DNA of 64,000 bases, taken from Candidatus Methanogranum gryphiswaldense (lineage in GTDB: Archaea; Thermoplasmatota; Thermoplasmata; Methanomassiliicoccales; Methanomethylophilaceae). The notes under the pieces are model-generated. The model was not told the origin of the DNA. It saw only the letters and a program-made list of their open reading frames with translations, and did not search any database. Positions 46,419-46,815 of this stretch are shown one piece after another; the stretch's first letter is position 1; each line of letters begins with the position of its first letter. Position numbers and translations under genes: made by a program. The stretch is taken from contig CP076745.1 of assembly GCA_019262145.1 (NCBI GenBank), forward strand, positions 1,237,093-1,301,092. Direction: 5' to 3'.

Positions 46419-46526
46419 TTACTTCTTGCGCATCTTTGCCGCTCTCTTTCTTCTTCTCATTTTCTTCTTGCGCCATTTCCAACGCTGGTTACCGCGTTTC
46501 TTCCAGGCGCGTGAACTTCTCTTCAT
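46419..46526 (-). CDS. Ribosomal protein eL41
   Basis: 35-residue extremely basic peptide (MKRSSRAWKKRGNQRWKWRK...). The pattern of Arg/Lys and Trp (RWKWRKK) matches archaeal eL41, which lies between the ribosomal subunits. It is far below usual gene-finder cutoffs. It sits between two intron-bearing tRNA genes on the same strand. Confidence 0.9.
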   Translation of the reverse strand: MKRSSRAWKKRGNQRWKWRKKKMRRRKRAAKMRKK

Positions 46527-46574
46527 GATATTTCCTCTCGATAGATCCTCATCACACAGGTGACGACCCTCTGG

Positions 46575-46673
46575 CGGGCCCGTCGGGAATTTCGGTCCCT
46601 TTAAGGGAGACTTTCGAACCCGAGGCGTCTGGCTTAGAAGGCCAGCGCTATATCCTGGCTAAGCCACGGGCCC
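46575..46673 (-). tRNA. tRNA-Arg (TCT) with a 24-nt T-loop intron
   Basis: Acceptor GGGCCCG/CGGGCCC, anticodon stem CTGGC/GCCAG with loop CTTCTAA (anticodon TCT). The T-arm is TCGGG...CCCGA, but 31 bases separate its strands instead of 7. A canonical bulge-helix-bulge is visible: TTCG pairs with CGAA (4 bp), flanked by 3-nt bulges AAA and ATT. Cutting after the second base of each bulge removes 46589-46612 and leaves the normal loop TTCGAAT. CCA is encoded at 46572-46574. Confidence 0.93.
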
Positions 46674-46815
46674 CGCAGACCTCCATTCACATCTATCATT
46701 TAAAGGTTTAGTTTAAATGACACATGAAAGATGGAAATCTCCGACGTTCACAGGTAGATATAGCGGACAATTTGACTGATTATTAAAGATTTGCTATATA
46801 ACTTGATTAATTCGG

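Follow-up and report, generated by a model that had tools for sequence, protein, structure and literature searches.

Position 59/60 of the tRNA is already listed among the insertion sites of archaeal introns, with Crenarchaeota and Nanoarchaeota as the rich sources (Yoshihisa, 2014, PMC4090602, citing Sugahara et al., 2008), and the noncanonical-intron model of tRNAscan-SE 2.0 was trained on Crenarchaeota and Euryarchaeota (PMC8450103). The part of a Methanomassiliicoccales genome comparison considered here makes no mention of tRNA introns (PMC4153887). A search of the open literature, which left GtRNAdb and subscription papers outside its scope, found no report of T-loop introns in Methanomassiliicoccales or in Thermoplasmatota. 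The kind of intron described below is already known, and its lineage and distribution, which we did not find reported, are new as far as the open literature goes. By the usual rule, introns located away from position 37/38 accompany a loop-bearing heteromeric splicing endonuclease (EndA). The intron found in Candidatus Methanogranum gryphiswaldense and its relatives resembles the archaeal 59/60 introns reviewed earlier (PMC4090602) in its insertion point, its bulge-helix-bulge (BHB) splice sites and its short length, and likewise co-occurs with a 37/38 intron in one gene. It differs from them in its hosts, which are Methanomassiliicoccales and other Thermoplasmata, in the type of EndA and in its strict 3-4-3 motif. 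Relative to canonical 37/38 archaeal introns, the strict hBHBh' motif and the expected enzymes are the same, whereas the motif is located in the T-loop rather than the anticodon loop and the exons contribute the pairs of the T-stem and TTCG.

The window, which is the whole stretch of 64,000 nucleotides analyzed here, belongs to a single-contig genome of 1.52 Mb and carries a tRNA-Arg(UCU) gene on its minus strand (46572-46673). Because the gene encodes its own CCA (46574-46572), it ends at 46572; the preliminary description had given its span as 46575-46673, of which the start holds and the end does not. The gene consists of a 5' exon with tRNA positions 1-59 (46613-46673), a 24-nt intron between positions 59 and 60 (46589-46612) and a 3' exon that runs from position 60 to the CCA end (46572-46588). 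A TTTAAAT sequence located 25-31 nt upstream of the mature 5' end (46698-46704, minus strand) is a possible archaeal TATA box. On the minus strand, the T-stem strands TCGGG (46623-46619) and CCCGA (46587-46583) are separated by 31 bases. Within this interval the exon-derived TTCG (46618-46615, T-loop positions 54-57) pairs with the intron-derived CGAA (46594-46591) to form the 4-bp central helix, flanked on opposite strands by the 3-nt bulges AAA (46612-46614) and ATT (46588-46590). The BHB rule places the cut after the second base of each bulge, so that cleavage would be expected at 46613/46612 and at 46589/46588; excision at these sites takes out the 24 nt from 46612 to 46589 and restores the T-loop TTCGAAT.

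The minimum-energy fold of the precursor computed with RNAfold (-45.7 kcal/mol, z -3.1) is a strict hBHBh' (3-4-3) structure built on the T-stem, with GUCUC/GGGAC as the intron stem. Given the 102-nt precursor, ARAGORN reports no tRNA, whereas it recognizes the spliced 78-mer as a regular tRNA-Arg(UCU). With the Rfam tRNA model the unspliced gene reaches no more than 31.1 bits, and its 3' part is placed wrongly. The two opposed 3-nt bulges around a 4-bp helix, together with the standard tRNA left after removal, are the hallmarks of a BHB tRNA intron. The preliminary description had placed the T-arm strands, the TTCG/CGAA helix and the AAA/ATT bulges correctly to the base; the 24-nt cut that it proposed is borne out by the RNAfold structure and by ARAGORN on the spliced form, and its claim of a noncanonical T-loop intron in tRNA-Arg(UCU) stands, with the BHB at 59/60. 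Chance or a sequencing error is ruled out because the same intron site is found in 47 genomes of the family. Judged from its sequence and predicted fold, the insert is a BHB intron at noncanonical position 59/60. It is also the only convincing match when the whole genome is searched with a looser T-loop intron pattern.

The splice-site structure was then evaluated for covariation using 44 distinct variants, each comprising the T-stem, TTCG, the bulge, the first and last five bases of the intron stem, CGRA, the second bulge and the T-stem. Pairing is kept in 98.1% of cells. The extraction pattern fixed the bulge sizes, CGRA and the paired T-stem, so these three features are not independent evidence; the intron stem lay outside the selection and shows two-sided changes at all five of its pairs. 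The covariation score is 0.371, compared with 0.135 for shuffled variants and at most 0.125 in slid registers. The central helix, whose motif was part of the extraction pattern, is 100% paired, and its sole change is U-A to U-G in four variants. The covariation of the intron stem indicates that the splice-site pairing is maintained by selection.

The distribution of the intron was first determined in the family Methanomethylophilaceae (order Methanomassiliicoccales), where 102 genomes were searched, 82 matched and the gene was read in 80, two having been set aside because they matched only via tRNA-Arg(CCU). Of the 80 genomes, 47 from 10 genera (g1, g2, g3, g4, g6, g7, g8, g10, g11 and g14) have a T-loop intron of 19-27 nt at the same site, and all intron-bearing genes read in the family fit the BHB motif. 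The T-loop is uninterrupted in 30 genomes (g9, g12 and one g5), and the remaining three genes were ended by contig ends or unreadable. The T-loop intron also extends to each of the five further families sampled in the order (f2-f6), mostly alongside a 37/38 intron in the same gene: in f2-f5, 14 genomes (L148-L154, L156 and L158-L163) carry both introns in tRNA-Arg(UCU), and in f6 the T-loop intron occurs by itself. Two genomes of g15 have the 37/38 intron only, and g17 has neither. Outside the order, tRNA-Arg(UCU) also bears a T-loop intron in families f7, f8, f14 and f21 of the class, and lacks one in the members read of f9, f11, f16, f17, f18, f26 and f29. In two f16 loci, L169 and L170, the 3' end of tRNA-Arg(UCU) recurs some 100 nt downstream of the gene as a second copy (CCCGACAGGTCCGCT or CCCGACGGGTCCGCT) that resembles the far end of a small insertion beside the tRNA gene.

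The history of the intron was traced on a 55-row gene tree of EndA in which several forks are open. The intron-bearing g10 and g7 are deepest in the family, the intron-bearing f6 is its sister and f2-f5 are adjacent; the intron-free g9, g12, g5, g15 and g17 are nested within intron-bearing groups. For g5 the intron-free state comes from one genome (G007), whereas the genus is represented in the tree by a different one, G005, where the tRNA was not found. Intron state requires 8 changes over the whole tree, at least 4 of them forced by strong branches. Within the order, one ancestral intron followed by several precise losses is the simplest reading of these data, since almost all deep branches have it in the same tRNA; beyond the order, it may have been gained independently. 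The repeated precise loss would mean that the intron has no indispensable function of its own.

Several independent gains of a genuine 59/60 intron form the best-surviving alternative, in which the T-loop is a favored insertion target because one half of the central helix is already contained in its palindromic TTCGAA, so that CGAA and a bulge are all an insert has to bring. The unrelated intron interiors of different families, the 8 state changes and the T-loop BHB introns found in tRNA-Lys, tRNA-Gly and another tRNA-Arg of other families all fit such a history. The intron-bearing state of one and the same tRNA in nearly all deep branches is more simply explained by one origin, and we regard repeated gain as improbable. 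The preferred reading, which we hold to be very probable, is that this is an old archaeal BHB tRNA intron, ancestral to Methanomassiliicoccales, precisely lost several times and spliced by EndA and RtcB.

EndA is encoded by a single open reading frame in this genome (about 350 aa), in which PF02778 and PF01974 each match two stretches, and no separate EndA partner subunit was found in the genome. The C-terminal half has an intact Tyr-His-Lys triad (FRVY / CHARYLV / VKKEI); in the N-terminal half, which reads SVF and has no His, the triad is absent. EndA is thus predicted to be alpha'2-like, with two fused units and one triad encoded by one gene, and it probably forms a homodimer. The enzyme shares the two-unit fusion, the C-terminal catalytic unit and the lack of a loop with the alpha'2 EndAs of Archaeoglobus fulgidus (1R0V/2GJW) and Thermoplasma acidophilum (2OHC). 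It is longer than either of them (305 and 289 aa), and its N-terminal unit is still recognized by PF02778 and PF01974. The A. fulgidus enzyme, which has narrow specificity, is among the nearest solved sequences. The best PDB match is the (alpha-beta)2 EndA of Methanopyrus kandleri (5X89), an enzyme of constrained specificity that likewise has a full-length structural unit and no loop, but is made of two separate subunits (179 and 166 aa) rather than encoded by one gene. No insertion corresponding to the Crenarchaea-specific loop (CSL) or ARMAN-specific loop (ASL) was found in this EndA or in 58 other aligned EndAs of the class, and FYGKLLEGMLQLSLIES has none at the Aeropyrum pernix loop site, i.e. 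the lysine-bearing loop before the LSLIE helix of the catalytic unit.

Euryarchaeal homomeric EndA enzymes are known to cut the canonical BHB (PMC4033280; PMC6379350). This is the motif of the tRNA-Arg(UCU) intron, and the unusual feature therefore lies in where the motif is placed rather than in the motif. A broad-specificity EndA, either (alpha-beta)2 with CSL or epsilon2 with ASL, is rejected by the missing loop insertion, and the predicted architecture and motif indicate that such an endonuclease is neither required nor seen. The preliminary description had raised a heteromeric or two-unit EndA; two units are found, fused in a single gene and with one triad between them. It had also taken the short intron and perfect motif as signs of a recent gain, in this genome or genus, served by a broad-specificity endonuclease. 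The intron-free g9 and g12 of the same family could be read that way as well, but the same site and motif recur in 10 genera and five other families, with intron stems that have diverged and yet been compensated. The presence of the intron in 47 genomes of the family contradicts recency. The distribution already refutes this account, its enzymatic part is at odds with the strict motif and the sole, loop-free alpha'2-like EndA, and we give it almost no credence.

With RtcB also present in the genome, a complete route can be proposed for the old intron. In the precursor, the T-stem, the TTCG of the T-loop and the CGAA of the intron would stack into a single rod that carries two opposed 3-nt bulges. 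EndA, acting as a homodimer of its one gene product, would cleave both bulges behind their second base, and the exons would be ligated by RtcB to give the normal T-loop TTCGAAT in the sole AGA-reading tRNA. Splicing would precede formation of the T-loop/D-loop elbow because the BHB holds the T-loop bases. The intron would have been present already in the ancestor of the order Methanomassiliicoccales, with several precise losses thereafter.

The tRNA-Arg(UCU) gene is single-copy, a search of the genome found no second AGA-reading tRNA and AGA accounts for 34 of the 76 Arg codons in six genes of the window. That the insert is retained, in a pseudogene or a tRNA with an enlarged T-loop, agrees with ARAGORN's failure to recognize the gene and is nevertheless extremely improbable given the regular tRNA of the spliced form, the BHB kept by compensatory change and the heavy use of AGA by a genome with this one reader; single copy and codon use together reject the pseudogene. 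An eL41-like open reading frame of 35 codons that encodes a very basic product (MKRSSRAWKKRGNQRWKWRKKKMRRRKRAAKMRKK) lies 45 nt downstream on the same strand (46419-46526, minus). Twelve loci, drawn from seven families, have tRNA-Arg(UCU) followed by this frame in the same order, an arrangement that points to a common transcript. Elsewhere in the window, a tRNA with anticodon CAU (63142-63037, minus strand) is an elongator tRNA-Met by sequence and carries a 37/38 intron; ARAGORN miscalls it as an intron-containing tRNA-Ser(CGA). The Rfam tRNA model found no tRNA-Tyr, tRNA-Trp or tRNA-Pyl in this near-complete genome, where introns or an unusual structure may conceal them.

At the level of the class, 300 of 400 genomes contain a match to the T-loop BHB pattern, a raw count that is too high because palindromic TTCGAA sequences also match the pattern. 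The window holds one such artefact (about 63049, plus strand), which is due to the palindrome in the opposite-strand tRNA-Met gene. Among 30 fetched examples, 22 have a full T-stem, 18 of these 22 have an intron stem (9% expected by shuffling) and 9 of the 30 yield ARAGORN tRNAs (Lys, Arg and Gly) only after excision. Most of the fetched examples look real, and introns in the T-loop seem to be frequent in a large part of Thermoplasmata, with a narrow-type EndA to process them. The view that such introns are rare in Thermoplasmatota-type archaea, put forward in the preliminary description, does not survive these matches: the majority of the families sampled in the class have them, and a fair proportion are in confirmed tRNAs. 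T-loop intron matches are nearly absent from families f18, f22, f30 and f33, and in most of their genomes a single PF01974 unit is recognizable in EndA; in the other families of the class EndA has two such units and T-loop introns are common. This association is a lead rather than a test, because the four families may be one or two clades. It is conceivable, if on balance doubtful, that many tRNAs across Thermoplasmata have 59/60 BHB introns as a standing feature, tied to the full-length two-unit fused EndA, with freedom of position decoupled from the specificity loop. If true, intron-position freedom would be tied to another property of EndA, contrary to the usual rule.

One practical consequence is that tRNA finders miss such genes: by ARAGORN alone, the genome seems to be without an AGA-reading tRNA. 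The findings suggest that T-loop introns need neither a two-gene EndA nor a specificity loop. They also suggest that a sole essential tRNA has kept one T-loop intron through an archaeal order, and that this intron can be lost precisely time after time.
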